This document shows positions 287 to 32,600 of a stretch of 45,453 bases of DNA, in pieces. The stretch spans positions 1 through 45,453 of the IMG/VR virus record IMGVR_UViG_3300042545_000600. One strand, 5' to 3'. The translations under genes and the position numbers were made by a program. Under the pieces are notes generated by a model. The model did not search any database and was not told where the DNA came from. It saw nothing but the letters and a program-made list of their open reading frames with translations. Origin of the DNA: a virus. Numbering within the stretch: position 1 is the stretch's first letter; each line of letters begins with the position of its first letter.

Positions 287-886
287 TTAAACAATATCTT
301 TCGATTCTATTAATGTATATGTAAACGATTTACCATGTATTGCACCTGATTTTCTCGTAATAACCATAAATTCTTCAAAATCAGCTGCTTTTTTGAATAC
401 TTGACATCCTTCAGACCAATTTTCAACATAAGTTGAATCTGCTCCAGCTTTGTGGATGTTGATACCAAAGATACCTTCTTGGATTTTGGTTTCATCATAG
501 TTCATATCTCTATTAGCATCTCTATAAACCTTAACCGGCTTTTGTTGTTTAAGTGCTTCGTATTTACCTTGATGTAATCCCAATGTATGTGAACCTCTAT
601 ATTGACCCGGAACTAAACGAGCAACTCCAGCTGCATTATGATATTCTTTAACTCCCTTTGTACCAGGGTCGGTTGTGTTTACCCATTCTTTGTAAATCCA
701 ATTACCACCATCTTTATATGATACTGAAATTGCATCATCAAATACGTTAGTAACCTTTGTACCGGTTGATGAATTTCTGATACCTACGATGTTTAAATCA
801 AATCCTTTGTTAGAAGCATCTTCAAACCAAACGTATCCTTTTGATTTAACTGCTTTTTCAATTTGTTCTTTTGTGTACTTTGCCAT
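287..886 (-). CDS. L,D-transpeptidase-like (HxnSxGC) cell-wall protein
   Basis: 199 residues without a signal peptide. Near the C-terminus the sequence has GINIHKAG (141-148) followed by NWSEGCQVF (156-164), so H145, S158, G160 and C161 reproduce the H...SxGC signature of YkuD/ErfK-type L,D-transpeptidases, where Cys is the nucleophile. The N-terminal part (TKEQIEKAVKSKGYVWFED) is helical and the middle contains GVARLVPGQYRGSH. A role on peptidoglycan during lysis or wall remodelling fits its position at the end of a block that also holds a holin-like protein and a GH19 endolysin. The lack of a signal peptide means access to the periplasm would need the holin. This is a motif-level assignment: the canonical SHGC[IV]R is SEGCQV here, so an unrelated Cys hydrolase remains possible. 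A promoter-like motif lies 19 nt upstream and a terminator follows. Confidence 0.6.
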   Translation of the reverse strand: MAKYTKEQIEKAVKSKGYVWFEDASNKGFDLNIVGIRNSSTGTKVTNVFDDAISVSYKDGGNWIYKEWVNTTDPGTKGVKEYHNAAGVARLVPGQYRGSHTLGLHQGKYEALKQQKPVKVYRDANRDMNYDETKIQEGIFGINIHKAGADSTYVENWSEGCQVFKKAADFEEFMVITRKSGAIHGKSFTYTLIESKDIV

Positions 887-918: not shown

Positions 919-2592
919 TTAGTACGAAATTGTTGTACTATTAGAATAACCGGTATTAATTAAGTAGTAATTTGAACTTCCACCACTTGTTGGATTATTT
1001 ATTATAATTGAGGATGTTCCTATATAGGTAGGGCGTAAATCAGTAGTTGATGAATTTATTATATTATATTGTGATTGGGTAAATAATCTAACATTTGGTA
1101 AAGAATTTTCCCATATAGATTTCATCCCAACTTTTTTCATATGAATATAATAAACATCAGATACAGTTACTTCACCATCATTATTTACATCGTACTTATA
1201 ATAATCTAATCCATTAAATGAATTACTAATAACTTTGTACATTATAGAATTAATATCACTGGTACTTAGTTGTGTTGTAGGTGTTGGAATATCATATTGA
1301 ATATACCATTCGGTTGCTGGATTGGTTGATTGAGAAAATGAATAATATCCAGAAGAGTTAGTATAAACTGTTTGATGTAAAACCCATGGAGTAAAATCGT
1401 TAATATAATCAAATTCTATAACATAAGGTAAAGATGTATTTCCTAAATCATTCCATTTACCACCTGTAACAAATTGTGTATAATCTTCACTGGGTGAGTT
1501 ATTAGGTTCTCCGGAATTCCAATTTGTGTATTGATTTAATTTATATCGATATGCATATAAGTTATATGTTCTATCAATTTCATCGGCTGTTATAGCTCTA
1601 TTGAATATTTGATAATCACCTAATCTAAAATTACCATAAGCTCCAGAACCCATATTAGTAACATCACTTAATCCAAATGCGAAATATTGTCCGTTTCCCG
1701 AATACACATACGGAACATCTCTAGTAAAATTAGTACTTCCAAAATTTACATTATTTAAATATCCTTTCATTGATGCCCCATCATAAGTAATAGAAACCAA
1801 ATGCCAAGCGTTTAATGTAATAGATGTACTTAATTGAGTAATTCCACTACCATTCCAAAATCCAACTCTAAGGGTATTACTTCCAGTGATTTCCATTATT
1901 GATTCATGCCAACCTGATGTAGGACTACCAACACCTAATTCCGATGATATAACTCCATTTCCGGTTGGATATATCCAAGCCATTATAGTTATTTTATTAT
2001 TCGAAAATTTGGATGCTAAATTATTTGTTATTGCGTATTGATTAGTTCCATTGAATGTTAAATATTTCCCACCAGTACTTGAGTATGATGGTGTATTGTA
2101 TAATGTAGAATTAATACCAGATACAATATCAGTTAGTGTGGTTCCTGATGTATAAGAAGAAACATCATAATCAGCAACCAATCCATCAGTTACTTTAGTT
2201 TCTGTCCAACGAAATCCACCAGCTGCTTCCGAATAAGTATATCCAGAAACTCTATCTTGATAATATCCAATCCAACCAGATGGCCATGTATTAAATAAGA
2301 AATTGTTCTCAGCTGAATTAGATACGGTAGCTAAGTGACCTCCCATATTTTCACAAGCAACCTTTGCATTAGTCCAAGTCATTGAACCAGTAGAACGATA
2401 GTAAGAGTGTCCGTTATAATTGGTTTGTGATGTAAACCCAGTAAGAGTTGGTGTAGTACGTTTATATAATTTTACAGCAACATTTTGAGCTGGTAATCCA
2501 CCCGCATTATACATATAACCCGAATATGTAAATGTTTGAGCAAATACAATATTGGATATTATTAATAATAACAGGGTGAGATATCTTCTCAT
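919..2592 (-). CDS. Exported C-type lectin with nested LamG domain and dockerin-like module
   Basis: I place the start at the ATG at 2590-2592 (MRRYLTLLL), one base after the upstream stop. It gives a clean signal peptide ending ISNIVFAQ, whereas an upstream ATG at 2613 would add seven residues before it. Numbered from this start: a carboxypeptidase-regulatory-like strand set (about 22-45); the first half of a C-type lectin domain with WIGYYQD (107-113) and FRWTE; a LamG/concanavalin-like domain (about 136-343, with MAWIYP and LNAWHLVSITYDG); the second half of the lectin domain with EPNN (362-365) and WND (380-382); the rest of the regulatory-like domain; and a dockerin-like segment with DVNNDGEVTVSDVYY. 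EPN and WND are the calcium and mannose-type sugar ligands in classical lectins. The canonical disulfides are missing. No T9SS tail is present. It is probably secreted or periplasmic and binds glycans. Confidence 0.75.
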   Translation of the reverse strand: MRRYLTLLLLIISNIVFAQTFTYSGYMYNAGGLPAQNVAVKLYKRTTPTLTGFTSQTNYNGHSYYRSTGSMTWTNAKVACENMGGHLATVSNSAENNFLFNTWPSGWIGYYQDRVSGYTYSEAAGGFRWTETKVTDGLVADYDVSSYTSGTTLTDIVSGINSTLYNTPSYSSTGGKYLTFNGTNQYAITNNLASKFSNNKITIMAWIYPTGNGVISSELGVGSPTSGWHESIMEITGSNTLRVGFWNGSGITQLSTSITLNAWHLVSITYDGASMKGYLNNVNFGSTNFTRDVPYVYSGNGQYFAFGLSDVTNMGSGAYGNFRLGDYQIFNRAITADEIDRTYNLYAYRYKLNQYTNWNSGEPNNSPSEDYTQFVTGGKWNDLGNTSLPYVIEFDYINDFTPWVLHQTVYTNSSGYYSFSQSTNPATEWYIQYDIPTPTTQLSTSDINSIMYKVISNSFNGLDYYKYDVNNDGEVTVSDVYYIHMKKVGMKSIWENSLPNVRLFTQSQYNIINSSTTDLRPTYIGTSSIIINNPTSGGSSNYYLINTGYSNSTTISY

Positions 2593-2593
2593 A

Positions 2594-3043
2594 TTACATT
2601 TGGTTAATAGCACTTATTAATGATTTTTTTAATGCAGCTGAAAACGCTGATTTTTCAAATGGAATATTTTCATCTTGCAATTCAATAAATGTAGATTTTA
2701 CATCAGTCTTACTTTCACCAATTCCAGTATATACTTTACCATTAATAATTAAATCAACAGTCACAATAGTAACTTTTCTTTTCTTTTCAAATGGTCCAAT
2801 TGAAATACTTGTTGTAGGTGCCTCAATACTCTTAACAACAACCATTACTGATTCACCATCTTCACATATACTATATTTTTCAGATAGAATTTCTTCAGTT
2901 ATTTGTTTAACACCTAATGTAAATCTTTTAGGATTTATATTTTCAATTTTAGCAAGACTCTCTACATTTTTAACAGTGTAGCATTTTTGTCCATAAGTTA
3001 ATGATGTGATTAACATCAAAGATAGTAATAATAATTTTTTCAT
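2594..3043 (-). CDS. Small exported protein of the CsgG-like cassette
   Basis: 149 residues from the ATG at 3041-3043 (MKKLLLLSLML), chosen because it gives a signal peptide ending SLTYGQ|K and starts one base after the upstream stop. An earlier ATG at 3067 adds eight residues that spoil the signal. The mature protein has two cysteines, a basic strand (FEKKRKVTIVTVDLII), a NGKVYTGIGES turn and a C-terminal amphipathic helix (SAFSAALKKSLISAI). The 'VDLIINGKVYTGIGES' stretch looks like the 'RFVDAETGEIITGSGLGEA' strand-turn-strand of the CsgG-like protein two genes upstream, so it could be a small periplasmic or outer-membrane partner. That likeness was judged by eye. I recognise no family. It is translationally coupled to genes on both sides. 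Confidence 0.6.
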   Translation of the reverse strand: MKKLLLLSLMLITSLTYGQKCYTVKNVESLAKIENINPKRFTLGVKQITEEILSEKYSICEDGESVMVVVKSIEAPTTSISIGPFEKKRKVTIVTVDLIINGKVYTGIGESKTDVKSTFIELQDENIPFEKSAFSAALKKSLISAINQM

Positions 3044-3044
3044 T

Positions 3045-4262
3045 TTATAAAAGTGCTTTAGCACCAAGTAATACTTGGTAGTTTATAGCATCACTCTTAA
3101 ATTGTTGAACACCACTAAAACTGATGTTCATTTTAAATTTCTGAGTTAGCTTGTAATCAATTGCAACAAATGGAACTGCTAATAGTCCCGATTGATACCA
3201 CATGCCTTCATAATAATATACAAATGGTGAATATACTGTAACAAACATCAATGTAGTACTCATTTTTTTTCCTACATCGAAATTACCAACAACTCCGCCT
3301 AAAGTTGATAAACTTTGGAATTTGGATTCACCAATATTACCAGTAGTATAATTTACTCCCAACGTTGCTGTTATTTTTTTTATTTTATACGATTCCATTA
3401 TCGATGTTGTATTAAAATAATCCTTTTCAAAATTCAACATAGATGAATTTGCAACTATTGATGTTAAGTTTTTACGTCTCCAAGCTGCAAATAGTGTTAT
3501 ACAAGAATTATCAATTGCAGTAGTATAATTTACCAAAGCCCCTTTAGCAAATGTATTCTCAGTATTTGATGTGATAAAACTCATATTAATTTTAAGTTGT
3601 TGTGGTTCATTACCAGAAGCACTTGATATAGTAACAATATCACCAGTCATCATAATATTACCACGTTTAACAGCTGCTACTTTAGCTTTAACCTGAGATG
3701 AATTAGATGATGAAGATGATACAGCCTCTTCAGCTTTTTCTTCACCTGTTTTTTCTTCCGATTCTCCTTTTGATTTAGTTGATTGCGATGAACTACCAGA
3801 TGTACCATTTTTATCATCTGATTTATTGCCGTTAGATGCGACTTTTTCATTACTCTGAACTGTACCTTGTATTGCTGAACCAGCTGCTCCACTTATAGAT
3901 GAAAGTGATGACATGGTTGACATAACGCTTGTTAACACTGCTATATTATTAGCTGCAACCGTTACATTTAAATTGGTACTTTGTGCTATACCAACACCAC
4001 CACAAGGGCCGGAACCTTGCGGATTACTCGCATTAACTTGATTAATCCAACTTTCTAATGCACCGGATTGTAATTGTGTTTGAGTAAAACTTTGAATTTG
4101 CCCAGAATATATTAATGATACGCTACCATTTGGGCTATTAATAAAAATATCTTTGGATTTTAAGGTACATGGGTCTGTAAATGTATATGAGAACCCTTGT
4201 CCTAACACCACCATAGTAGAGAACAAAAAACTTATTGTTATTAAAAGTTTTTTAATTTTCAT
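3045..4262 (-). CDS. Exported protein with C-terminal outer-membrane beta-barrel-like region
   Basis: 405 residues from the ATG at 4260-4262 (MKIKKLLITISFLF). The start lies inside the last codons of the holin-like gene (11-nt overlap) and yields a signal peptide ending VVLGQ. An ATG at 4307 would add 15 unlikely residues. After the signal come a segment with a DPC and GPCGG cysteine pair, a Ser/Asn/Lys/Glu low-complexity linker (about residues 140-185), and about 200 residues of alternating hydrophobic/polar strands separated by short turns, rich in Tyr, Phe and Thr (TTLMFVTVYSPFVYYYEGMW, LLAVPFVAIDYKLTQKF). This is the look of a small outer-membrane beta-barrel. The protein ends in LL rather than the usual terminal Phe/Trp, which lowers confidence. 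It probably works with the CsgG-like channel encoded two genes upstream. Its function is unknown. Confidence 0.6.
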   Translation of the reverse strand: MKIKKLLITISFLFSTMVVLGQGFSYTFTDPCTLKSKDIFINSPNGSVSLIYSGQIQSFTQTQLQSGALESWINQVNASNPQGSGPCGGVGIAQSTNLNVTVAANNIAVLTSVMSTMSSLSSISGAAGSAIQGTVQSNEKVASNGNKSDDKNGTSGSSSQSTKSKGESEEKTGEEKAEEAVSSSSSNSSQVKAKVAAVKRGNIMMTGDIVTISSASGNEPQQLKINMSFITSNTENTFAKGALVNYTTAIDNSCITLFAAWRRKNLTSIVANSSMLNFEKDYFNTTSIMESYKIKKITATLGVNYTTGNIGESKFQSLSTLGGVVGNFDVGKKMSTTLMFVTVYSPFVYYYEGMWYQSGLLAVPFVAIDYKLTQKFKMNISFSGVQQFKSDAINYQVLLGAKALL

Positions 4263-4614
4263 CTTGCGAATCCAATGTATTAGATAAAGATACGCCATCC
4301 TCTTCATCTACCTTTTGGATTAACATTTTGTCTCTATCTTCAGAGTTGAACCAATAATCTATAACTTTATTTAAGTTACCAACAAAGGCACCTAATAAAA
4401 TTAATAACATTTCTTTCCAGTCTTGTCCAATTTCTACACCAAAAAATACACCAGAGTTGATTCCAACAATAATTAAGGTAAATAACCCTAATATAATTGC
4501 GGTAATTCTCCAACGATTATTTTGCATTTGTTGCAACATAAAATAGAAACGATTTTTATCATCTACTTTAACATAATCAGATTTACCACCGAAAAATTCA
4601 CTTATTTTGCCCAT
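4252..4614 (-). CDS. Holin-like protein with two membrane segments
   Basis: 120 residues. A basic, charged N-terminus (about 1-33) precedes a first membrane segment, ITAIILGLFTLIIVGINSGVF (about 37-57), a short polar turn with GQDW, and a second segment, MLLILLGAFVGNLNKVI (about 69-85). An acidic tail (EDRDKMLIQKVDEEDG) follows. Two TM helices, small size and an 'LLGAF.G....VIDYWF' second helix are typical of phage holins, which permeabilise the inner membrane at lysis. The gene sits 5 nt after the CsgG-like gene and overlaps the next gene by 11 nt, so it is co-translated with the envelope cassette. The alternative is an inner-membrane partner of the channel. No sequence motif proves holin activity. 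Confidence 0.55.
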   Translation of the reverse strand: MGKISEFFGGKSDYVKVDDKNRFYFMLQQMQNNRWRITAIILGLFTLIIVGINSGVFFGVEIGQDWKEMLLILLGAFVGNLNKVIDYWFNSEDRDKMLIQKVDEEDGVSLSNTLDSQDEN

Positions 4615-4619
4615 TATAT

Positions 4620-5339
4620 TTAACTTTTAAATATTCCCTTTTTAATCATTTTTGAAACAACTCTAGATGCTCCAGTTTCAAGAGCTTTCTTAGTTGATAT
4701 ACCAATAGTTGATTGGTTAAATTTAATGTCATCAACACCATCTAATAATGATGCAGTTTTAACTGTACTTGCTTCACCCAAACCACTACCGGTAATAATT
4801 TCACCAGTTTCAGCATCAACGAATCTAACCTGTAAACCCAAACGAGTTGTTTGAGTTGTTTTTGAACCATCAGTCATTTTGATTTGTTCATCTTCGGATA
4901 CTGAAAAGTCATATACCTCAATATAAACGAAGTATTTTGCTAAAATAACATTACCCTTCACTTCTATCTTATTACTTGATATACCCTTATCAGATGCCTT
5001 ATCCTGTGCAATCATTTTTTGTTTAATCTCCTCACGGTCCTCAGTAAACTTAAATCTATCTGTTGACTCTAAGAATTCTAAAACAATATTAGCAACACCA
5101 AGCCCAACTCTCTTATCCTTTAACTCAGGATACATTTCGTAAAGTTCTTCGTTAATACCAATTTTTAAAACTTGAATTGGTAAAACGATATCACCATCAT
5201 AGTCACCTACAACTGCAATAGATTGTTTTTTTTCAAAATCAGCTTTATATTCTTCGGTTTTAATAGTTCCAATTGTTTGTGCATTACTAACAATAGAAAA
5301 TAATAAAATTGAAGAAATTATTAATATTAATTTTTTCAT
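4620..5339 (-). CDS. CsgG-like outer-membrane channel protein
   Basis: 239 residues. A signal peptide (MKKLILIISSILLFSIVSNA) is followed by a CsgG-type core: IAVVGDYDGD (41-50), the helix VANIVLEFLESTDRFKFTEDREE (82-104), a glutamine-lysine-rich helix ending QDKASDKG, the strand LAKYFVYIEVYDF (133-145), two long strands TTRLGLQVRFVDAETGEIITGSG (164-186), and a C-terminal KKALETGASRVVSKMIKKGIF. The order 'L..F.....R', 'TGE' and 'ALETG.....I..G.F' matches E. coli CsgG, which forms a nonameric export pore for curli subunits. Unlike CsgG, no lipobox Cys follows the signal peptide, so membrane anchoring would differ. It is one base from the upstream gene and 5 nt from the holin-like gene. No curlin-like substrate is visible in the window. 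Confidence 0.75.
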   Translation of the reverse strand: MKKLILIISSILLFSIVSNAQTIGTIKTEEYKADFEKKQSIAVVGDYDGDIVLPIQVLKIGINEELYEMYPELKDKRVGLGVANIVLEFLESTDRFKFTEDREEIKQKMIAQDKASDKGISSNKIEVKGNVILAKYFVYIEVYDFSVSEDEQIKMTDGSKTTQTTRLGLQVRFVDAETGEIITGSGLGEASTVKTASLLDGVDDIKFNQSTIGISTKKALETGASRVVSKMIKKGIFKS

Positions 5340-5340
5340 A

Positions 5341-5664
5341 TTACCAAGAATCCTCTTCTTTTGGTTTAGCAGGTGCTGCAGCTGGTGCAGGTTTTTCTAC
5401 AATTGTTTTTTCTTTAATAATTGTATTTGTACCACCCGATTGTTTTTGTTGATTAGTGTTATTATTTTGTAGATTGATAATTACAGGTGCAGCTGGAGCA
5501 GCTTGTTCTGTTTTAGTTTCTTCTTTATCATCTCCACCATTAAATAGAGTTGTTGTAACCCAAGTTCCACCTGCTAATACAGCAGTTGATAGAGTTCCAA
5601 TAATTGTTTTCTTTAAACCTGACCAAGTTCCTTCTGATTCGGGTGCGTTTGTTTCTTCTGACAT
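5341..5664 (-). CDS. Single-TM protein with proline/alanine-rich tail
   Basis: 107 residues. A polar N-terminus (MSEETNAPESEGTW) precedes one hydrophobic segment, TIIGTLSTAVLAGGTWVTTTLF (about 20-41), which lacks signal-peptidase features, so it is probably an N-in membrane anchor. The remainder is acidic, then Asn/Gln-rich, then Pro/Ala/Lys-rich (IVEKPAPAAAPAKPKEEDSW), an extended shape suited to spanning the periplasm as TonB-like or inner-spanin proteins do. It is the first gene of the tight cassette (one base before the CsgG-like gene). It might link the inner membrane to the channel or act as a spanin-like element. No family is recognised. Confidence 0.6.
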   Translation of the reverse strand: MSEETNAPESEGTWSGLKKTIIGTLSTAVLAGGTWVTTTLFNGGDDKEETKTEQAAPAAPVIINLQNNNTNQQKQSGGTNTIIKEKTIVEKPAPAAAPAKPKEEDSW

Positions 5665-5738: not shown

Positions 5739-7643
5739 TTATCTTAATATAATTTTTTTCGATAGGTTATTGGTAGTTTTTCTAAGAACTGCAACATAAA
5801 CACCTGGAATTAAGTTACCTAAACTAACTTGGTATTGGTAATTACCTTCAGGCATATTATCATTTACTACTACCCTATATTCAATACCATTAAGACCATA
5901 TACTGATAACCTAACCGGTCCAAATTCTTTAACTTCAAATTTTACGTTAACATAATCATCAGTTGGGTTAGGGAATATTTGCATACCCTCTATTTCATCA
6001 ATAGTAACATTTGCCATTCTAAATACCTGTATAATACCATTTGTAGGTGTGATACTTAAATCAACACATTGATTGTTACCAGCGTATTTGTTAGTAGTCC
6101 AAAGAGGACTTGTACTCCATTGGTCTTGAGGTCTTTTTGCAATAAATTTTAAAGTTACAACATCATCACCATCTCTTAATGGTTTTATATGTGTACCACT
6201 AATATCATATCCACCCCAAGAAATTTCATTATTATTAGTATTCAAATATGTTAACCAACTTGAAGTAGCTGATTTCGATTCAATTCCTTTAAATTCCAAT
6301 AGAGTATCGTTGTATTTTAATCCAAATTGTAATGAACCAACCTCAGTACCATTTGTTAATACCTTTACAGGTATATTAACTAAATTACCTTCCTGAACTG
6401 ATAATGTTGGAACATTTACTTCAATTGAAGTTGTTGGAAAATCATATTCTACCCTAGCATCAATTACATTGTAAATTTGAGATGGAACGCCAGGTTGTGG
6501 TCCTACTAAAACCTCAATTGGAGTAATACGTGCCATACGATATCCCGTTCCATTTGCATCACCCGGTACTAATACATAGAATGTAACCGAATCAGGTTGT
6601 CCAGCAACAATATTAAACGTAAAGTTAGTTACACCAGGAATTGTTGATGTATAATTGGTTGTTGAGCCATTAATAGTAGTATATTCAGATTGTGTAAAGA
6701 ATTTTACATTTTGAACACTATTAGGCCATGCGGTGAATCTACCAGAAATTCTACCAAATATACCATATGCATCCGATATACTTAAACCATTATCACCATT
6801 AACATCCGATGCGTAAAAATCAAATCCAGTTGGTGCTTGTGTACCTAATACATAATCTTGTACTCTTTGTGCATCTGCCGTAGATATTACATTACCAACT
6901 GATAACGTATCTCCCTGTATTTTTAATCTAACATCATAACCAGTTGTATCAATTGCAATTGCATTAAATGCAAAGTCACCATTTATATCAGTCATATCAG
7001 TTGTAACCTGAGTCCAAGCTCCACTTGGTCTAAGTTTCTTTTCTAAAGCTACAGTTAAATTCTTAGCAGCTGTTCCAGTTACGTTCTTAAATTTACCATG
7101 ATAAGACATTGTTTGAGGTATAATATTACCACCAAAGTTTTGTAATGTAAGTGCGTTATCCATACCATTTTGCTTTGATGCAATTGCTGGATAAGTTACC
7201 GCTCCAAATGACATATCAGCAATAGTTGATAATGATGCAAATCCAGCTACGTGAGTTAATTTCAACTGAACAATTGGTCCATTTGGAATTTCAAAAGTAG
7301 ATGAACTACCAGTATAAGTCATTGTGACAGTTACATAACCAGCAGCCGGATTATCAACATATTTTAGGTTCTGAGAAAATGTTGTATTCAATGTAGTAAG
7401 TGTGTCTACCCCAGTGAAAGCTTGTGTATCATAATAAACTCTAAACTGAAATGCTGTTATATCAGTTGTTGTATTGTTGTAAAAACATAGTCCTACATTA
7501 GTATAACCTTCAGCTACCGTACCAGCTAAATAATTTGAATCAAGTGTTATAAAAACACCAGAAGTTGTTGGCGTTGGGCAAGTTTGTGAATACCCAAAGA
7601 TTGGTACTAATGATACCAGCAGTAAAAATAATAGTTTTTTCAT
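5739..7643 (-). CDS. Type IX secretion cargo with cohesin-like and dockerin-like modules
   Basis: 634 residues. A signal peptide ends IFGYSQ (20). Residues 28-172 form a cohesin-like beta-sandwich (ITAFQFRVYYD, GPIVQLKL). A carboxypeptidase-regulatory-like domain (178-245, DINGDFAF) follows. Then comes a dockerin-like module (252-303) with the calcium-loop pattern DVNGDNGLSISDAY (280-293), NVKFFTQSEY and PGDANGTGY. Residues 405-545 are a second cohesin-like sandwich (VGSLQFGLKYNDTLLEFKG). The last 84 residues (551-634) are a T9SS type A sorting domain: MQIFPNPTDDYVNVKF, RLSVYGLNG, NLIPGVYVAVL and a basic end KKIILR. In Bacteroidota this domain directs proteins through the outer membrane by the Por machinery, after which it is normally removed. 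The phage therefore appears to use the host secretion system to display or release this protein. Confidence 0.85.
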   Translation of the reverse strand: MKKLLFLLLVSLVPIFGYSQTCPTPTTSGVFITLDSNYLAGTVAEGYTNVGLCFYNNTTTDITAFQFRVYYDTQAFTGVDTLTTLNTTFSQNLKYVDNPAAGYVTVTMTYTGSSSTFEIPNGPIVQLKLTHVAGFASLSTIADMSFGAVTYPAIASKQNGMDNALTLQNFGGNIIPQTMSYHGKFKNVTGTAAKNLTVALEKKLRPSGAWTQVTTDMTDINGDFAFNAIAIDTTGYDVRLKIQGDTLSVGNVISTADAQRVQDYVLGTQAPTGFDFYASDVNGDNGLSISDAYGIFGRISGRFTAWPNSVQNVKFFTQSEYTTINGSTTNYTSTIPGVTNFTFNIVAGQPDSVTFYVLVPGDANGTGYRMARITPIEVLVGPQPGVPSQIYNVIDARVEYDFPTTSIEVNVPTLSVQEGNLVNIPVKVLTNGTEVGSLQFGLKYNDTLLEFKGIESKSATSSWLTYLNTNNNEISWGGYDISGTHIKPLRDGDDVVTLKFIAKRPQDQWSTSPLWTTNKYAGNNQCVDLSITPTNGIIQVFRMANVTIDEIEGMQIFPNPTDDYVNVKFEVKEFGPVRLSVYGLNGIEYRVVVNDNMPEGNYQYQVSLGNLIPGVYVAVLRKTTNNLSKKIILR

Positions 7644-7721: not shown

Positions 7722-8177
7722 ATGAAACTGATTCTACTTTTAATTAATTTTTTATTTGTGTTTGATTGTTACTCACAAATTAAAATCGATGATGTTGGTG
7801 ATAATTGGAAAGCAAAGGTAGCTACTTCATTATCACTAATAAAACAAGTTGACCCTAATAAATATGAATTAATTAATGATGTATGTAAACATATCACCTA
7901 TTGGGATGGTGATTTTTCAACAACAGAAGATTCAGTTACCATAATGATATCCCAAAAAGATATGAGGTTTAATTCAATAAATAACATAGCAGCTATATTA
8001 GTGCATGAATCTAAACATTTATTTTATTTAAAGCATAACATAAAATTACCTCCGAATTATGAGGAAATATTAGCATATCATTATGAATTGGAATTCCTAT
8101 CAAAAATACCTAATGTAGAACCTTGGTTGGTTAACAACGCACTTAAGAATATAGAATATTATGGTTTAGTTAAATAA
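7722..8177 (+). CDS. Exported HExxH zinc metallopeptidase-like protein
   Basis: 151 residues and the only plus-strand gene here. A signal peptide (MKLILLLINFLFVFDCYSQ) is followed by a small domain containing VHESKH (94-99), an exact HExxH zinc-binding motif in a hydrophobic helix (NNIAAILVHESKHLFYL). Further on, EEILAYHYELEFL (114-126) could provide the third ligand, as Glu does in gluzincins. The size is minimal for a zincin. It is probably periplasmic or extracellular and might process host surface proteins, peptidoglycan-linked proteins or the co-encoded secreted proteins. Its orientation against all neighbours, its own promoter-like element and its convergence on the endolysin gene 13 nt away suggest insertion as an autonomous 'moron'. 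The substrate is unknown. Confidence 0.6.
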   Translation: MKLILLLINFLFVFDCYSQIKIDDVGDNWKAKVATSLSLIKQVDPNKYELINDVCKHITYWDGDFSTTEDSVTIMISQKDMRFNSINNIAAILVHESKHLFYLKHNIKLPPNYEEILAYHYELEFLSKIPNVEPWLVNNALKNIEYYGLVK

Positions 8178-8190
8178 ACCAACCCCCATA

Positions 8191-9012
8191 TTACTTTAAT
8201 AAGTTATAGTATTCTTTGAAGTGTTTGATTCTATCAGCTAATCCAATAGTACCACCATTTACTCTTTTAGTTACCGATGTTACAGTAGCATCATCAAAAC
8301 CTTTATCACAAATAGACCAAAGTTTATTTGAATCAAAGAAAAATGCAGCAGAAGCTAATGGATATTTAGTTGCTACCAAATCAGGATTTGCAACAGTATC
8401 TTCACCAATGAATTTAGCGAAGTTAGTATAGTTAGATTTACCAGTTAATTGAATATAACCACGTCCACGAAATTTAAATCCGTCTTTAGATGCTTCATCA
8501 CCATTACCCATTCTTGATGCGTAAACTTTAGATGCAATCTTTTCAGGGTTTCTAGCATATGCAGCTGCAGTTGTTGAATTAAAGTATTTTCCGAAGATTT
8601 TTACTAATCCATCTGCTGAATAGTTAACATTCTCAGTAACGGCTTTGAATCCACCACTTTCGTGTCCACATTGTGCTAAGAAATGAGCTAATCTTAGAGG
8701 AGTTGTAATATTGAATTTAGAAGCAGTGTCTGGAATTTGAGCAATTACAGAATCAGGAACGTGTCCTTTAAGAGCTGCCAATTTAAATGAAGATGCTGGT
8801 ACAGCAACAGAAGGAGTTGGAGTACTTGCACCCAATCCCATCTTTTCCCAAGTAGCATCACCAACGATACCATCAGCAGTTAATCCATTTTTTGTTTGCC
8901 AAGCTTTTACAGCTGATTCAGTACCAGCACCAAAAACTCCATCAGCGGTTAAACCTAATTTTGCTTGTAATTTTTTTACATTTTCGTTATTATCACCTTT
9001 TTTAACTAACAT
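8191..9012 (-). CDS. Endolysin: PG-binding domain plus GH19 muramidase/chitinase-like domain
   Basis: 273 residues. The N-terminal 60 residues are a PG_binding_1 fold with a repeated pattern (LGLTADGVFGAGTESAVKAWQ, NGLTADGIVGDATWEKMG). A Thr/Pro/Ser linker (61-75) follows, then a GH19 catalytic domain: LAHFLAQCGHESGGF (108-122) with the likely catalytic acid E118, TENVNY with E127 as second acid, and the substrate-cleft motif FRGRGYIQLTGKSNYTNF (181-198). GH19 enzymes of phages cleave the peptidoglycan glycan strand. There is no signal peptide, so it needs a holin, and a candidate is encoded at 4252-4614. The gene ends 13 nt from the convergent plus-strand peptidase gene. Confidence 0.92.
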   Translation of the reverse strand: MLVKKGDNNENVKKLQAKLGLTADGVFGAGTESAVKAWQTKNGLTADGIVGDATWEKMGLGASTPTPSVAVPASSFKLAALKGHVPDSVIAQIPDTASKFNITTPLRLAHFLAQCGHESGGFKAVTENVNYSADGLVKIFGKYFNSTTAAAYARNPEKIASKVYASRMGNGDEASKDGFKFRGRGYIQLTGKSNYTNFAKFIGEDTVANPDLVATKYPLASAAFFFDSNKLWSICDKGFDDATVTSVTKRVNGGTIGLADRIKHFKEYYNLLK

Positions 9013-9034: not shown

Positions 9035-9430
9035 TTATTTTTTAAAATGACCGGAATCTATAATTTTAAAGTCATTTCCATTTCTATCTATCATTTGGTA
9101 GTGAGCTTCTATCAACCCAAACCATTCATCTATATGATTTAATACTTGAGTTGCAGTAAAATCTGAACAACTATATAAATCAAATTGGAACATTGGTGGA
9201 TTATCATTATCCCAAACGTGAATACTAGCATGCGATGTTGCTAATGTTACTGTTCCCGTTATTCCTTCGTTGCCCGGTTCGTTAACATAAACCGATGTAG
9301 GACCGGCAACTACTTTCATTCCTACTTTATTAACTAATTCACTAAACCAAACGTTTAGTATTTTTTCCGTTTGAGGTGGAGTTTTAATGCTTCCCTTTAC
9401 AAGTAAATGTAAATGATTTGGTATAAACAT
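9035..9430 (-). CDS. speD: S-adenosylmethionine decarboxylase-like proenzyme
   Basis: 131 residues. The core motif TSHASIHVW (65-73) followed by FDLYSCSDF (83-91) matches the bacterial small AdoMetDC family. S66 is the serine that becomes the pyruvoyl cofactor by self-cleavage, H71 (five residues later) the processing histidine, and C88 the catalytic acid. In the Thermotoga enzyme the spacing is 63/68/83. The residue before the cleavage serine is Thr here rather than the usual Glu. GNEGITG (53-59) and the N-terminal NHLHLLV are also family features. The enzyme makes decarboxylated AdoMet for spermidine synthesis. Related genes are known as auxiliary metabolic genes in T4-like marine phages. 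No spermidine synthase is seen in this window. Confidence 0.8.
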   Translation of the reverse strand: MFIPNHLHLLVKGSIKTPPQTEKILNVWFSELVNKVGMKVVAGPTSVYVNEPGNEGITGTVTLATSHASIHVWDNDNPPMFQFDLYSCSDFTATQVLNHIDEWFGLIEAHYQMIDRNGNDFKIIDSGHFKK

Positions 9431-11960: not shown

Positions 11961-11970
11961 TATAAATATT
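11961..11970 (-). promoter_or_regulatory. Candidate late promoter element (AATATTTATA)
   Basis: Copy of the recurrent motif overlapping the polymerase stop codon, 29 nt before the ATG at 11931. This position supports the later start chosen for that gene. Confidence 0.4.
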
Positions 11971-13234
11971 AAAGTTTCGAGTAATCAGTTCCCCAGCTAG
12001 CATTAATGGGGAATCCACCACCTTCAGCTATCTCTTTTAACTTTTTAGCTTGAGATACATCGGAATTAGCAGGATATGAAAATAAGAATGAATCGTATGT
12101 GTATAGGGAAAGTTCTATATCGGTATCTTTGATAAATTCCAATATTTTAGCTACCCTTTCCATATTTAATTCGGTTTCGGTCGCTTGAAGTAGGTAGTTG
12201 AACAATTTTTGCGGATTGTTTCCTTCAATCCAATCTAAGGGGATTCTCCTATGTTGTGTTTGAAGATATCCAGCTTTGGTACTCTTATCCCACAACTTCT
12301 CAATGAACTCCTTAACACCCTTATAATAAGGTATTTGCTCAAACTCCTCAGGTATACCACCATATAGTAATTGGAACGTAATTCCTTTACCCTCACCATA
12401 CTCACAACCATATTGGTCAGCTAACCATTGGTGTACGGATGTTTTGGGTAATTCGTAACCAATCAACTTACCAATAATACGTGGATGATACGCATCATAA
12501 TCCATTTGTAGGAATATGTGGTTTGGTTTTGGGATAAACACCTCTCTCGTACCATCGGATTTGTTTAGGGCAGAGAAGTTGATTCCACCAAATCGGTTGG
12601 ATGGACGGGATGTAATGGTGTATGGGTTGTATTGGGTGTAAACGATATCGTTGTGTAAATGTTTAGAAGCTTGAGGCCATCTATCAAGAAATTTTTCCCT
12701 ATCGACCCGAACACCAAAATGTTCTATATCTGAAAGAAGGGGAATCATCGAATCTCCAACCCAATCATTCTCTATACCAATAGTAAAAGTAGAAGATATC
12801 ACTCTAAGATACTCACCCCATTTCATAATAGGTGCTATCTTGCCCAAATTATCTCGTATACCTCTTCGGGTATAGTGAGTTATAAATGGTTGGTCCTCAA
12901 AACCTATCGGATATAATTTATTGTGTTGAAAAAATGCATCAGATTGTAAATCATTTAGGTTTTGTAAACCCAAATTACATTGAAGTAATCCCTTTTTGTT
13001 GATTACCCATTTTGCTTCCTTAGAAGTAGTCAAATCAATCGTAGGAGTCTTACAATCAATATGGTTAAATGGTACAATAAAGTCCTTATCATCAAATCTA
13101 ACATATAGAAATGATAATTTGTTATGTATAGGATGCTTTTCCAAATCAGACCATATTGGAATGATTATGGATGTCTTAGTATTCCATAAATTTAAAAACT
13201 CCGTTACTTCAGTTTGTGACTCTACTATAACCAT
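11969..13234 (-). CDS. Short family-A DNA polymerase lacking a visible exonuclease domain
   Basis: 421 residues. The polymerase palm and fingers motifs appear in order. TSRPSNRFGGINFSAL (208-223) corresponds to the template-binding motif before motif A. LQMDYDAYHPRI (242-253) is motif A with the metal Asp. GKGITFQLLYGG (282-293) is motif B with the K...F...YG spacing. LYTYDSFLF (377-385) stands where motif C 'VHDE' is expected, with D381 as second metal Asp and Ser in place of Glu. The roughly 200-residue N-terminal region is too short for thumb plus a 3'-5' exonuclease, and no DxE motif is obvious. Placement between a glycosyltransferase and an unknown gene in the late region is odd for a main replicative polymerase. 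It may be a repair or gap-filling enzyme, or the C-terminal half of a split polymerase. Confidence 0.75.
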   Translation of the reverse strand: MVIVESQTEVTEFLNLWNTKTSIIIPIWSDLEKHPIHNKLSFLYVRFDDKDFIVPFNHIDCKTPTIDLTTSKEAKWVINKKGLLQCNLGLQNLNDLQSDAFFQHNKLYPIGFEDQPFITHYTRRGIRDNLGKIAPIMKWGEYLRVISSTFTIGIENDWVGDSMIPLLSDIEHFGVRVDREKFLDRWPQASKHLHNDIVYTQYNPYTITSRPSNRFGGINFSALNKSDGTREVFIPKPNHIFLQMDYDAYHPRIIGKLIGYELPKTSVHQWLADQYGCEYGEGKGITFQLLYGGIPEEFEQIPYYKGVKEFIEKLWDKSTKAGYLQTQHRRIPLDWIEGNNPQKLFNYLLQATETELNMERVAKILEFIKDTDIELSLYTYDSFLFSYPANSDVSQAKKLKEIAEGGGFPINASWGTDYSKL

Positions 13235-26262: not shown

Positions 26263-26670
26263 TTATTTTATCAAAGATTTAATCATTTCTTTTAATTCAT
26301 CAATTTGTTTTTGCTGAGAATTGATTATTTCGGTTTGTTCTTTAATACCTTCAACTAAAAGAGGAACTACTTTAGCGTAGTTTACAGTTAAGTAATCTTC
26401 TCCAGATTTGGAACCTACAATATTATTATTTTTATCAGTTTCCGTATCAAATGGTGCTAATGTCACAATTTCAGGTAAAACTTCTTGTACTTCTTGTGCT
26501 GATAAACCTAATTGTCTTTTTTCGTTTTTGTATCCGAATGATTTTGCTAAATCATTTTCAACATAATAGAATCCATTCAATTTAGAGATTTTATCTAAAG
26601 CGTTTTCAATAGAACCAACTTTAGTTTTTAATCTTTCATCAGAGTAGTATGCAATAACATCACCCTGTGC
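26263..26670 (-). other. S74 intramolecular chaperone/auto-peptidase domain
   Basis: This part of the giant fibre gene encodes the S74 domain. The codon of the presumed catalytic Ser is at 26641-26643 (S3802, in YYSDERLK). Cleavage is expected just before this serine, releasing the last 126 residues from the mature fibre (known for the family, not shown here). Confidence 0.85.
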
Positions 26671-29600
26671 GTAAACCCAGTTATAAGAATAAACATAATC
26701 ATAGTTTGTTCTATTCAATCTGGAAGTACCATTCGGAGCCAAATAATATGCAGTATCACTGTTGTGGTAATATACGTTACCATATACTCTATTATTGAAA
26801 TATGCAATAGGGTTACCACTCTCTCGTCCGATATATGCTACGGAAACTGACTGGCCAGTAGTATTATCATGTATTCTTACATATGAGTTTGCATTATTAT
26901 CATTTGAATCTAATCTTAAGTTGATATCATTAAATGAGTTAATACTCATCGAATCACTAAACGAACCATTTAAATCAGTAGATGCGATACCATGATTTGA
27001 ATAAGTGTCATAATTCGCGTTCCAGTCAAATGACATGTATGCCGTTTTATGGAATGAATTTGACCAAGTACCATATCCCTGTGCTCTACCTTTATTAGTA
27101 TCTGAACCGAAGTATGTTGTATCAGTTATGGTTGTATTGAAACGAGATGTTGATGCAAAATCACCATAGTATCCAGAGTTATTACCATCGTAATATATAC
27201 CACCATAAACTGTACCTGTTCCGAAATTTGAATAACCAGAATAGTTGTTTGAATTTAGATATCTAACCCATCCGCTGAAACTTCCTCCGGTAATATTTCT
27301 TTGATAAATTTCATTTGCATTATCTTCCCATCCATATGCCAATTGAGTTCCCCAATAGTTACTTGAGTTTGCATGTCTCATATTTACCTGGAACCACCAA
27401 GTTCCAGATGGACCACCATTATATTTATCTTCACCAAACGTAAATGAACTTATTGGAGTTCGATTGAAATCTGAAACCCAGTTTCCTTCTCCATAACCAC
27501 TCATATCATTATGAGCTTTTAATGCAGTCTTAGTTATATTTAAACGAGATGTTGATGCTGGGTCTGCATAATATGCACTATCAGCCGAATCATAATAAAT
27601 TCCAGCATACATTGCTCCACTATTTCCATCATTCACATCAAGCATAGGTACAGTTCTCCAAGTACCAGCATTTGGCCAAGATTGACGGAATCGTAAATTT
27701 CCAATTGGACCACCTACCAACTGCCAACCATATGCACTATTGTATGCATTGGTGTAGTGATATGCTTGAGTACCTACCCAATGTGAAGTACCAGATGGTT
27801 GATTTGATGGGTTTGACCAAGAATCAATGAATCCACTACCCCATGTCATCATAGTGTTGAAGTCAGTTGTACCCCAACCCATACTTCCAACCCAATAATT
27901 AGAGTCGCCCGTATGAATAAATCTTGGGATATTGTATTTCCATGTTCCTTTGGTTCCTTCTACTGTTCTTGCGGTAAATCCATTAACGCTGGTGCTTCTA
28001 TCACCTGCATAATTACCATAGTATCCAGTATCATCATTATCATAGAATATAGGTGCCTGAACTGAAGTTCTGAACCAACCACGTGATGATATTGCCGCAA
28101 AAGTTGTACCATAGTTCATTACCAATAAACCGTGGTCATTTAAGAATCCAGCTTGTCCTCCAGCATTAGGATGTGACCAAGATAATCCATATAAGTTACC
28201 AGTACCAGTACCATCAATTGCTAATTTATATGCATTACCCATTGCAAATATACCCTGATATCTAACAGATGTATAAACACCTACAATTGATTGTCCATAG
28301 TTGTTATCTAAGTAAAGGTTTTCATTTCCATCAATTCGGATACCACCATTTGCTACTACATATGATAATCTAGCAGTTCCATTAGGGTCTAAATAATATG
28401 CAGTATTTGCATAATCATAGTAAAGATTAGCTCTTAAATTTTTATTACCACCACCAGGTCCAATGTAAACATCACCACCATCATAATAGTTTAATTCTAA
28501 CGGGTCACTACCTCTACCATTTACAGTATCAGCATATACGTTTCTACCAATGAAACCATAACTCGTATCTCCCGCCCAATATAAATTATCATAATTAATA
28601 GCGTTTATACGAGATGTTGATGCAAAATCACCATAGTATCCCGTATTATCCGAATCATAAAATATTGGTGCTCTTAATGAGTTACCACCCGTAGCGTAGT
28701 TGTTAAATAATACGGTATTATTTGGATACATTTCCATATTAGTAACTCTAGTACCAGATGTATTTGTATTATAGAAATACAAATCACCACCATCACTAAA
28801 TCTCATATATGCCTGTCCGTGTGCGGTATTTATTCTACCAAATCCGTTTGGTGAACCATTATTATTAGTTACGTTATATCCAAATCCACCCCAGTTCCAC
28901 GTTACACCAGGTTCAGATACCCACATTCTTAAATTAATTTCACCTGCACCAGCACCATTGTTTCCAGACAATAATCTAACTCCAATTTGAGAATCCCCAT
29001 GTCCACCATTTACTTGAAATGTACCATATAAGTAAGTGTTACTATTGGGGTTCATATAATATGTAGTATCATCTATATCATAGAATATAGTAGCTCTTGA
29101 TGAACCATATGCGTAATGATTACCAGCAGTATCATATCCACCAACTGTTCTACCGGCAGTTTCAGAATACATATGGAATGCATCAGTACTACCTAACAAT
29201 TGAGTTGATGTACGTTTACCAACATACCAACTACTACCACTACCACCAATATAACGAACCATTGCTTCCCATCCGTTACCAGGGTTTATAGTAAGGTAGG
29301 TATGTTTAGCTCCAGTTAAATTTAAATTATAAAAATTAGATGTTGATGCAGGGTCTGCATAATATCCTGAATCATTTCTATCATAATATATAGTACCATA
29401 AATTGGACCTGCTCCATCTAATGTGCCACCATTCATATTGATACCACCATACAACCAGTTATAACCAGCTGAATAGATACCAGATGGATGCCAAGATGCG
29501 TTTCCAGTTCCACCTACGTTACCATTACCTTGATATGAATAAGTTTGTAGAGTATTTAGGTTTGATGCACCATCACCATTTATATAATACGCAGTGTTGG

Positions 29601-32600
29601 TATCATAATAAATTGGTGCCCTCATATCCGTATCAGCTCTAAATGTAGGAGCGTATGTATTAGATAATCTAATTTCAGGCGTTATTGCAGTTTGGACTGT
29701 ACCAAATGATGTTACTACTGCTATATTCCAATTTCTAGATTGTGAATCAGCGTTTGAACTTCTAAATCCAGATGTAAAATCAATAACACTAACTACCGGA
29801 TAACTCCATCCAGTATTTGTTTCACCTATCCAAACACAATCAACTCCGTCCTGATTACCAAATCTTACAGTATGTGCAGTTGCACTTGCTCCACCTATAA
29901 AAGTAGCAGATGAGTTATAACCACCTTGGTCATAAGCATAATTACCTAATAGATATTCTGATGTTTGGTTAGTAGAGTAATTATAAATTCGAACCTTCAT
30001 AGTCCACATAGGGTTATTTCCCCTAAATGGTAATTTAATTCTAATAGCTCCAGTAGAACCATCTGATGAAAATGCTGCTCCTTGTGGTGCAGTTATTCGT
30101 GTCACAACGTTTGGTGATGATGATGAATAACCATCACTACTAAATGCTCCACCTGAATGAACAGTTCCACCTATTCTTAAAGAAATTCCAGTTGTATTAG
30201 GGTCTAAATAATACCCACTATCATTGTAATCTCTAAATAATGTACCTCTTACTTCTTCAGATGCCACAATTCTAGATGAAATTGCTGCTCTAAATGTACC
30301 ATTATTGATAATCAATAAACCGTGGTCATTAAGATTATTAGCTCCACCTAATCCACCTGCGTTTGGATGTGACCAACCAATACCATACATATTTGCCGTT
30401 GATGTACCTGCCGTATTTGGTTTGTATGAATCACCCATAGCAAATACCAATTGTAATCTCTCTGCTGAATAGTTACCAACTATACCTTTTCCGAAATCAT
30501 CAAATACAATATTTCTAGCATATGTAATTCTAGTAGTATCTCTCGTATCATGGTAGTGAATTAGGGAATCAGTTCCAGCGAATCTACTATATCTATAAAC
30601 ATTATATCCAGAATCCCAATACCAATGGTCACCATACCAAGATGATGAATCTTCTCCAAAATAGAAATGAGAATCACCACTATCGGTTGCACCAACTCTT
30701 AAAGTATCATTAATATGAGTTTCATCAGCGTTACCATTTCCTAAATAAGTGTATCCATTTACATATAAATTATTAGTTACCCTAACATGTGCATCACCAG
30801 TACCAATTGAGAATATAAGCGTACCTAAATCTTCAGTATCATAAAAACGAATACCACCATATCCAGGTTGTGCACCCATACGGATACCAGTATGCCATCT
30901 TAAATCTAATTTAGTATATGAACCACCATAACCTTCTATATTAGTACCTATGTAATAGTTATCATTTGCATCAGAGTTACCTCCTCCAAAATGTAATCTA
31001 GCAGAACCTACTGAATTGTATGCGTTATTACTAAAGTTACCACCAATTACAACTCTTCCCGCAGTTTGTAAATCATTTAGGTTTGATGTTGATGCTCCAT
31101 CTATATAATAATTAGTATTATTTGCATCATAATAAATTGCTGCAAATAAGTTACCACTACCTCTATTATATCCAAATGCGGGTACAAGGTTTCCATTTAG
31201 ATAAAGGTCATTTACGTTCATATAGAAATTACCTCTATCCGTATAGATATGAGCATATGAACTATTTGCAGGTCCTATTTGTATGTATCCAACGTCTGTA
31301 GTAAATCTAACACCCCAATCACCAGCTCCAGATAATGTAGAATTATTTGCAGATGTACCCAATCTAATTGCGTTTAGTACAGAAGTAGATGCAGGGTCTA
31401 AGTAATATCCAGTATTATTTTCATCATAGAATGCATATGCGTACATATTGTTAGCAACCAAATTTTCATATGATGTACCCGGATTATTTCTTATTGAAAT
31501 TCTACCACTTGCTTCCATTGTAATATTGGATGCAACTACACCACTCCAATGGAAACCAATTGATGGTGCGTATGCAATGGCCGAACCATTTGCACCACTA
31601 GCACCTGCTTCTCTAATTTGAAAATGTTGTTGATATGATGTTCCAGCGGTTACACTATATACAGGCGATGCTGCATCAAATGCAATTCCATTCATACGAG
31701 ATGTTCCTGCTGGATTTGTATAATACCCAGTATTATCAGAATCGTAGAATATAGGTGAACGCATGTTCCCAGTTGCAGTCAATTCACCACTTTGGTTACC
31801 ATAAATTACGTTACTACCACCTGAATTTCTCCAAATCCAGTCTCCAGCAGCTTGGAAATACCAATTATTAGAATGATATTGAATCTTACCACTAAATTCA
31901 CCATCCCATGTAGATGAATCACTTCTCCAACTACCAACAGTTCTTAACGATGTTGTTGATGTAGGGTCTAAATAATATGATGTATTATTCGAATCATAGA
32001 ATATAGGTGCTCTAAAACTTGCTGCTGCAGTAGCAACACCACTATCATTTACACTAAACTCAACAGTAGTCCAAGCATTATCTACTACTTCTAAATATCT
32101 ACCTGCACCACCACCTAATTGTACAGTTAATACACCGGCTGCTCTATCAGATGCTCTACCAATCCAAGCCTCACCAGTATTAGTTTGAGAATTATTAAAT
32201 GTACCAACTTGAATTCTACCCTGTAAATTAGCAGAAATTCCATTTGCTCCATTAGATGGGTCTATATAATATGATGTATTATCCGAATCGTAGAATGTTG
32301 GTGCAGCAATACCGAATTGACCTGAAGTTGGATATACAATACTATCTGCCGTAAAATCGGAAATGTTAGTTGCAGAAGGTGATGTGTTAATATAAACCGC
32401 ACCAATTGCACTATTTGTATTGGTAGTAATACTTCGTGTAGTTCTAATAAGAGCATCAACTGATGAGTAATATCTAACATCAACATATACAGGAATGTAT
32501 CTATGGTCACCACTTACAACTACTTCAGAACCAATAGTTACTTGGAAGTGATTTGAACCTATACCATTTGCTTCAACTAATTGAACTGATGCTGCAGAAA

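Follow-up and report, generated by a model that had tools for sequence, protein, structure and literature searches.

A minus-strand gene module at the start of the virus record IMGVR_UViG_3300042545_000600 encodes two predicted CsgG-fold proteins. The window, by which we mean the whole stretch of 45,453 bases, may be a fragment of a larger genome. The block is a real, widespread and uncharacterised phage envelope module, and many large viruses of Bacteroidota bacteria share it. Its core consists of five genes, for a cohesin protein (coh), a small membrane protein (tm107), the CsgG-like protein at 4620–5339, a beta-barrel candidate (barrel) and a shorter protein (s157). A holin-like gene (hol120) and a lectin gene accompany them in the window. 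Our leading reading, a tentative one a little short of even confidence, is that this gene content would make a phage-specific outer-membrane complex by which cohesin and lectin proteins are assembled or displayed on the surface of the host.

To our knowledge, phages are not usually thought to build multi-part complexes of their own in the host outer membrane. The five-gene block is kept across large, divergent phages together with a conserved core protein, so it must matter to them. It is a second case of CsgG-type proteins in phages, beside those of SAR11 and OM43 phages, and its partners are different, which makes phage-encoded CsgG machines testable. The only cultured carrier among the matches listed, Flavobacterium phage vB_FspM_immuto (hereafter immuto), makes the module testable.

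The 4620–5339 protein has a predicted CsgG fold

In its predicted structure, the 4620–5339 protein clearly has the CsgG fold. The AlphaFold2 model used for fold searches was built from 67 family sequences (mean pLDDT 70.4, pTM 0.60). With this model, rows 1–20 of a Foldseek search of the PDB were all CsgG (E 6.8e-9 to 2e-6). VIA-align likewise placed CsgG first (Z 12.4, with for example 175 residues aligned at 4.2 Å), followed by CT253 (10.3), FlgT (10.1), LptE (9.3), PelC (9.2 and 8.3) and TraT (7.7). The best viral structural model matched was a phage protein annotated as CsgG. A first AlphaFold2 model, from 20 sequences, was too weak (pLDDT 56.7) and was kept out of the fold searches.

At the level of sequence the family appears to be a remote CsgG homologue by profile–profile comparison. 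The window protein alone had no Pfam match above the cut-off and found nothing useful in Pfam, PHROGs or the PDB, and family profiles had no match among PDB sequences. Members of the family alignments did match the CsgG family PF03783, namely 2 of 20 (best E 0.0012) and 3 of 67 (best E 8.5e-5). An alternative family, PF10432, was matched by 6 of the 67 and was set aside as weak (best E 0.047). Comparison by hhalign with 30 PF03783-matched bacterial proteins gave a probability of 85.6 (E 5.6e-6), against at most 1.1 for 20 column shuffles (E at least 0.05) and at most 0.3 for reversed profiles. An earlier, untrimmed alignment had given 57.0 (E 1.1e-4). When the bacterial proteins were divided into subsets that we sorted ourselves, the short CsgG set gave a probability of 52.5 and the classical set 4.8. 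Identity to bacterial CsgG in the alignment is about 13%.

An earlier note on this DNA, made from the letters alone, had called the protein CsgG-like from its motifs, and these are present in the translation (TGE at 178–180, ALETG and F237). A conserved YPELKDK segment is a further feature of the protein. That call holds by fold and is very remote by sequence. The profile search proposed there as a check came out divided, with no match for the single protein but matches for 3 of the 67 relatives and in the profile–profile comparison. The window protein has no cysteine at its cleavage site for a lipid anchor. A lipobox-like cysteine was seen in 41 of 159 distinct homologue N-termini, by a simple pattern that left 14 of the 159 unclassed.

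The note overlooked a second CsgG-fold paralogue in the module, which s157 is on the strength of profile comparison. The s157 family matches the phage CsgG-like family in hhalign with a probability of 97.4 (E 1.1e-11), where shuffles reach at most 0.9. Compared directly with bacterial CsgG, the s157 profile finds no link (probability 0.5 to 1.3), so that the connection runs only through the phage CsgG-like family. Of 20 s157 members, six match PF03923 Lipoprotein_16 (best E 1.8e-4) and two match PF05818 TraT weakly (best E 0.014). Against PDB sequences, s157 gave weak and unconvincing rows (best E 0.081).

A five-gene core is shared by large phages

Relatives were drawn from lists capped at 80 loci per search, and the locus numbers are lower bounds for the family. 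In 173 loci the CsgG-like gene is flanked by over 5 kb to either side; judged by the last 500 nt of that gene 109 were distinct, and 64 duplicates were dropped. The 109 comprise immuto, one contig of a metagenome-assembled genome (MAG; L083, locus labels being ours) and viral contigs.

All five core genes occur in 108 of the 109 loci, and the core genes found share one strand in every locus. Within 6.5 kb of the CsgG-like gene, barrel and tm107 were each found in all 109 loci, cohesin and s157 in 108, GH19 endolysin in 73, lectin in 66 and hol120 in 52. The order of genes varies around this fixed core. In the one exception, L254, s157 lies just past the 6.5-kb limit and no gene is labelled as cohesin; its lectin protein has weak dockerin (E 0.024) and cohesin (E 3.5e-4) matches, both below the cut-off. 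Looking for the same gene set in related phages, as the earlier note had suggested, thus returns a five-gene core; hol120, a member of the set proposed there, is kept in under half of the loci.

Of the five, the CsgG-like protein varies least, the pattern one would expect of the core of an assembly whose partners diversify. Mean pairwise identity is 66% for the CsgG-like protein, 48% for tm107, 37% for s157, 32% for cohesin and 30% for barrel; hol120, where present, reaches 59%. In each of 2,500 sampled pairs the core protein of the block was at least 50% identical.

Among the matches listed, relatives occur in viral contigs of up to 308 kb. The 160-kb immuto genome, from a phage of Flavobacterium sp. 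LMO8, encodes a 78% identical protein as gp017, annotated 'hypothetical'; its copy of the block falls within gp013–gp019. No cultured carrier beyond the immuto records was found among the matches listed, and a search with an s157 variant gave no match. When 84,980 bacterial and archaeal species, each represented by a single genome, were searched with a pattern, two relatives came up, both on MAG contigs with other module genes (L083 and L084). A profile search of 395 genomes from the phylum of the L083 MAG found that MAG alone, in its module-bearing contig. The family looks phage-borne on this sequence distribution.

Cohesin, lectin and a tail domain that can be split off

The constant partner of the CsgG-like protein is a cohesin protein. 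In the window it has Pfam matches above the cut-off to Cohesin (E 5.7e-11) and to Por_Secre_tail (E 1.9e-9), the C-terminal sorting domain of the type IX secretion system (T9SS). Together with its N-terminal hydrophobic segment, this gives coh both marks of a T9SS cargo. Dockerin_1 matches fell below the cut-off in coh (E 0.0014) and in the lectin protein (E 0.11). The lectin protein matches Laminin_G_3 (E 4.1e-15) and Lectin_C (E 3e-9), and its C-terminal region shares homology with the central part of coh over a stretch of about 160 residues (hhalign of the two families, E 1.6e-26). By hydropathy, coh, the CsgG-like protein, barrel and the lectin protein all have signal-peptide-like N-termini. 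With hhalign, the CsgG-like family also matched those of barrel, cohesin and lectin, but these alignments span residues 1–24 or fewer, the signal peptide, and were discarded.

The tail domain is not always fused to cohesin. A distant clade has a cohesin protein that stops short, followed by a gene for a small lipoprotein with a tail related to the absent domain (by hhalign, E 1.4e-5 at a probability of 79.8, with shuffles reaching 0.6 at most). This lipoprotein gene lies between the cohesin and tm107 genes, as at L212:7299-7661, L222:6448-6801, L105:5921-6289 and others, and 57 distinct ones were found. Pfam gives no sorting-domain match in six members, and the link to the tail comes from hhalign. 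Across the 109 loci the domain is fused in 68, on a split lipoprotein in 39, in neither form in two (L094 and L254) and in both forms in none. This complementarity suggests that both parts belong to one machine. It also suggests that the domain in the split clade, being on a separate lipoprotein, must be something other than a plain signal for sorting cohesin.

Two further core proteins could place the complex in the envelope. The transmembrane (TM) segment of tm107, which the earlier note had taken as a single TM, is weak, at about residues 20–42 by eye, with a best 19-residue Kyte–Doolittle mean of 1.13, below the TM limit of 1.4. Its tail is rich in Pro, Ala, Asn and Gln, and Trp107 and Pro60 are invariant in 14 diverse members. 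The barrel protein (405 residues) is a candidate, its barrel-like C-terminus having been judged by eye from the sequence.

A proposed complex at the surface of the infected cell

We propose the following arrangement. The CsgG-fold protein would sit as a ring at the periplasmic side of the outer membrane and either encircle the barrel or lie beneath it, comparable to the PelC–PelB and LptE–LptD pairs. The small tm107 protein would link this ring to the inner membrane. The complex may then export the cohesin and lectin proteins of the phage, assemble them or retain them on the infected cell's surface. Its purpose would likely be a change of the host surface that excludes other phages, limits loss of virions to debris, or lets the cell adhere to other cells or particles. 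The computational analysis shows the set of genes, their co-conservation and the fold; the mechanism is our proposal. A surface-assembly system can also be drawn, in which a phage CsgG-fold ring and barrel would export lectin fibres linked by cohesin and dockerin and anchor them on the infected cell, with the T9SS-type domain as fused tail in some phages and as separate lipoprotein adaptor in others; we consider this version possible, though rather unlikely.

The constancy of the cohesin partner favours the cell surface. Surface-type partners are widespread (cohesin in 108 and lectin in 66 of the 109 loci) and variable in sequence. The earlier note had left out the flanking cohesin and lectin genes when it proposed a pore for export or host modification. 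These genes point rather to the cell surface. The idea that the phage builds a pore of its own fared less well, as discussed below.

Several observations weigh against a surface complex. Its T9SS domain might be all that cohesin needs to leave by way of the host T9SS, with no call for a phage pore. All loci were fetched through the CsgG-like gene, and the conservation figures are conditional on it. A GH19 endolysin gene is found somewhere in 75 of the 109 loci, upstream in 37, downstream in 29 and upstream on the other strand in nine. Where present, it is as conserved as the CsgG-like protein (67%), which fits a role in lysis.

One narrower form of the surface proposal is surface exclusion. 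TraT is a decameric surface-exclusion lipoprotein with a single-gene function. By analogy, a TraT-like CsgG-fold oligomer with lectins would block adsorption or DNA entry of other phages. The variability of the surface-type partners agrees with this, as do the presence of TraT among the structural matches and the two s157 members that match PF05818. TraT, however, scores far below CsgG, a Z below 8 may mean only a common arrangement, and TraT has no cohesin partners. We judge this form to be quite unlikely.

The module might instead belong to the virion or to virion assembly and bear its signal peptides incidentally. In the window, genes for tail, baseplate and fibre precede it on its own strand. 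The signal-peptide-like N-termini of four of its proteins speak against such a role, and the immuto module sits after replication and nucleotide genes. This is the explanation to which we give least weight, and we think it very unlikely.

The hairpins differ from those of classical CsgG

CsgG forms its membrane barrel from two hairpins per subunit. A true CsgG-type transmembrane pore, which would conduct or export across the outer membrane alone, is compatible with several functions. In its favour, CsgG is the best structural match of the model, and long strands are predicted at both hairpin places (136–155/158–175 and 181–197). The earlier note had looked for paired pore strands at 164–190. 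Strands at the hairpin places are indeed present, but 164–190 covers mostly core strands and not the hairpin tips.

The hairpins themselves argue the other way. They could be parsed (first/second) in 143/130 of 159 phage proteins, in 12/9 of 12 classical CsgG proteins and in 9/9 of 12 short ones. The first has a median of 21 residues in the phage family, of which 33% are charged, compared with 25 residues and 16% in classical CsgG (n = 12). The second has a median of 22 residues, compared with 28. Phage hairpins are thus 4–6 residues shorter, and the first is twice as charged. They are also less amphipathic, with best alternating-face hydrophobicity of 1.59 and 1.45, below the 2.29 and 2.01 of classical CsgG; the short bacterial set gives 1.67 and 3.02. 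The transmembrane pore proposed in the note gains no clear support from hairpins that are present but shorter and, in the first, more charged, and we consider it improbable.

PelC is a CsgG-fold, outer-membrane-associated protein that pairs with the outer-membrane barrel PelB. LptE, of similar fold, pairs with the barrel LptD. We find a PelC-like ring beneath a separate barrel no less plausible than a pore. The module resembles PelBC in its fold match (Z 9.2 and 8.3) and in having a barrel partner, and differs in that no sequence link was found and that its clients would be proteins. The fold match to LptE (Z 9.3) comes with a structural score lower than that of CsgG, and no LptD-like protein was identified in the module.

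Linkage to lysis genes is not constant

The main rival to the surface proposal is a lysis complex. Here the CsgG-fold ring, the barrel and an inner-membrane tether would open the outer membrane after endolysin has acted, replacing spanins. Several features fit. The holin-like gene stands beside the CsgG-like gene in the window and within 6.5 kb of it in 52 loci, and GH19 endolysin genes are near in the three arrangements given above. In immuto, another annotated endolysin gene lies 7.7 kb from the CsgG-like gene. Upstream of the CsgG-like gene, tm107 is the nearest labelled gene in 77 loci, and in 47 of these its stop lies at most 10 nt from the CsgG-like start or overlaps it. This close packing recalls that of Rz and Rz1. 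As with the Rz/Rz1 spanins, a small membrane-protein gene is closely followed by an outer-membrane-directed one; the two systems differ by eye in sequence and size, and the CsgG-like partner here is a folded protein of 239 residues. A gated lysis pore has been proposed for the CsgGF of phage Melnitz (PMC9004378).

Holin and endolysin genes were followed in 15 large contigs and genomes, which we picked ourselves and in which the contigs may be fragments. The hol120 family had no match in eight of the 15, the complete immuto genome included. The phrog_181 endolysin was present in all 15, but its distance to the CsgG-like gene is about 29 kb in immuto, 28 kb in L034 and 47 kb in L027, while the five core genes stay together. 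A lysis cassette with constant linkage of holin and endolysin was therefore not what we saw, the holin-like gene being found in seven of 15 and the endolysin lying up to 47 kb away. With the holin-like gene optional and the endolysin sometimes far off, the core is not always part of a lysis cassette. The regular companion of the CsgG-like protein, moreover, is cohesin with its T9SS-type domain, for which no lysis role is obvious. These results tell against the replacement of spanins suggested in the earlier note, and we regard a lysis complex as unlikely, though less so than a pore acting alone.

The holin-like protein described there as having two TM segments has one strong TM at 40–58 and a second hydrophobic stretch recognised by eye. 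We did not accept hol120 as a proven holin, as its PHROG matches are weak and mostly to families of unknown function and tblastn to an annotated holin gave E 0.4. In two contigs (L084:6914-7486 and L215:7426-8004), the holin-like protein has a C-terminal extension with DxDGDG-type repeats and a cysteine segment, which is unusual for a holin.

Comparison with known phage CsgG operons

CsgG is already known in phages, and the cohesin/T9SS-partnered module differs from the operons in which it was found. In the HTVC008M and Melnitz phages, csgF, csgG, curlin-annotated genes and a cyclase gene stand in operons, with FecR also annotated in Melnitz. Their CsgG proteins have 43% (HTVC008M) and 41% (Melnitz) identity to a bacterial CsgG, far above the 13% or so of the present family. 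The present module is like them in the CsgG fold, in its occurrence in large tailed phages and in placing an exported protein beside envelope proteins. It differs in its shorter hairpins and in its partners: neither the curlin repeat (PF07012) nor CsgF (PF10614) was found in any of five records, namely the window, immuto and three large related contigs, of which the window and the three contigs may be fragments. The earlier note's observation that no curlin is encoded extends to all five. The two kinds of module have no other annotated gene type in common.

The note had also marked as its own supposition that CsgG relatives have no established role in phages. Proposals have in fact been published; besides the lysis pore of PMC9004378, a functional curli system has been put forward for phage csgFG genes (PMC9599517). 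The accessible parts of the open-licence PMC literature yielded no description of the five-gene module. T9SS sorting domains have been described on Cryophage proteins, where the cargo consists of variable enzymes and a PA14 protein (PMC7468147). Phage proteins carry T9SS sorting domains in both cases; here the domain is part of a module that is conserved, and in some loci a separate lipoprotein bears it.

Module genes and their surroundings in the window

The module runs in the order coh, tm107, CsgG-like, hol120, barrel, s157 and lectin, all on the minus strand (Table 1). The five open reading frames of the earlier note are all present and packed as described there, and its multi-gene envelope set stands in that the members look exported or membrane-anchored. 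Spacing is 74 nt between coh and tm107, 1 nt between tm107 and the CsgG-like gene and 5 nt between the latter and hol120. The hol120 gene overlaps the likely start of the barrel gene (4262) by 11 nt. One nucleotide separates the barrel stop (3045) from the likely s157 start (3043), and one the s157 stop (2594) from the likely lectin start (2592). These likely starts are ATGs just 5' of signal-peptide-like stretches and were picked by eye; the longer open reading frames of barrel, s157 and lectin start at 4307, 3067 and 2613.

Table 1. Module genes and nearby lysin genes in the window
Gene	Position	Strand	Product and basis
coh	5739..7643	-	Exported, 634 aa; dockerin-like segment, cohesin domain and Por_Secre_tail (T9SS-type C-terminal sorting domain)
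tm107	5341..5664	-	107 aa; weak single TM; invariant C-terminal Trp; proposed inner-membrane tether
CsgG-like	4620..5339	-	Exported, 239 aa; predicted CsgG fold (fold search, hhalign with controls, Pfam on family members)
hol120	4252..4614	-	Holin-like membrane protein; optional neighbour
barrel	3045..4262	-	N-terminal domain with two conserved Cys, low-complexity linker, C-terminal outer-membrane beta-barrel candidate
s157	2594..3043	-	Second, shorter CsgG-fold paralogue; signal peptide by eye
lectin	919..2592	-	Exported; C-type lectin and laminin-G domains
Endolysin (context)	8191..9012	-	Peptidoglycan-binding and GH19-type domains; no signal peptide by eye; phrog_181 E 1.1e-70 (Pfam, PHROG)
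Second lysin-like protein (context)	287..886	-	phrog_3000 E 1.5e-36; phrog_33083 endolysin E 3.9e-12

Between the module and the endolysin gene, the opposite strand (7722–8177) encodes a 151-residue protein with a signal-peptide-like start and, by eye, an HExxH-like motif (HESKH). It is a possible secreted metalloprotease, and its family occurs within 6.5 kb in 27 of the 109 loci. An S-adenosylmethionine decarboxylase-like gene lies at 9035–9430 (phrog_3125, E 4.2e-15).

Elsewhere the window encodes tail sheath, tail tube, baseplate and giant fibre genes. Downstream of the tail genes and adjoining a GtrB-like gene, 11969–13234 encodes a 421-residue protein that matches part of a DNA polymerase PHROG (phrog_17, E 5.5e-16). 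An open frame of 3,927 codons at 26263–38046 has tail-fibre and collagen-like PHROG matches.

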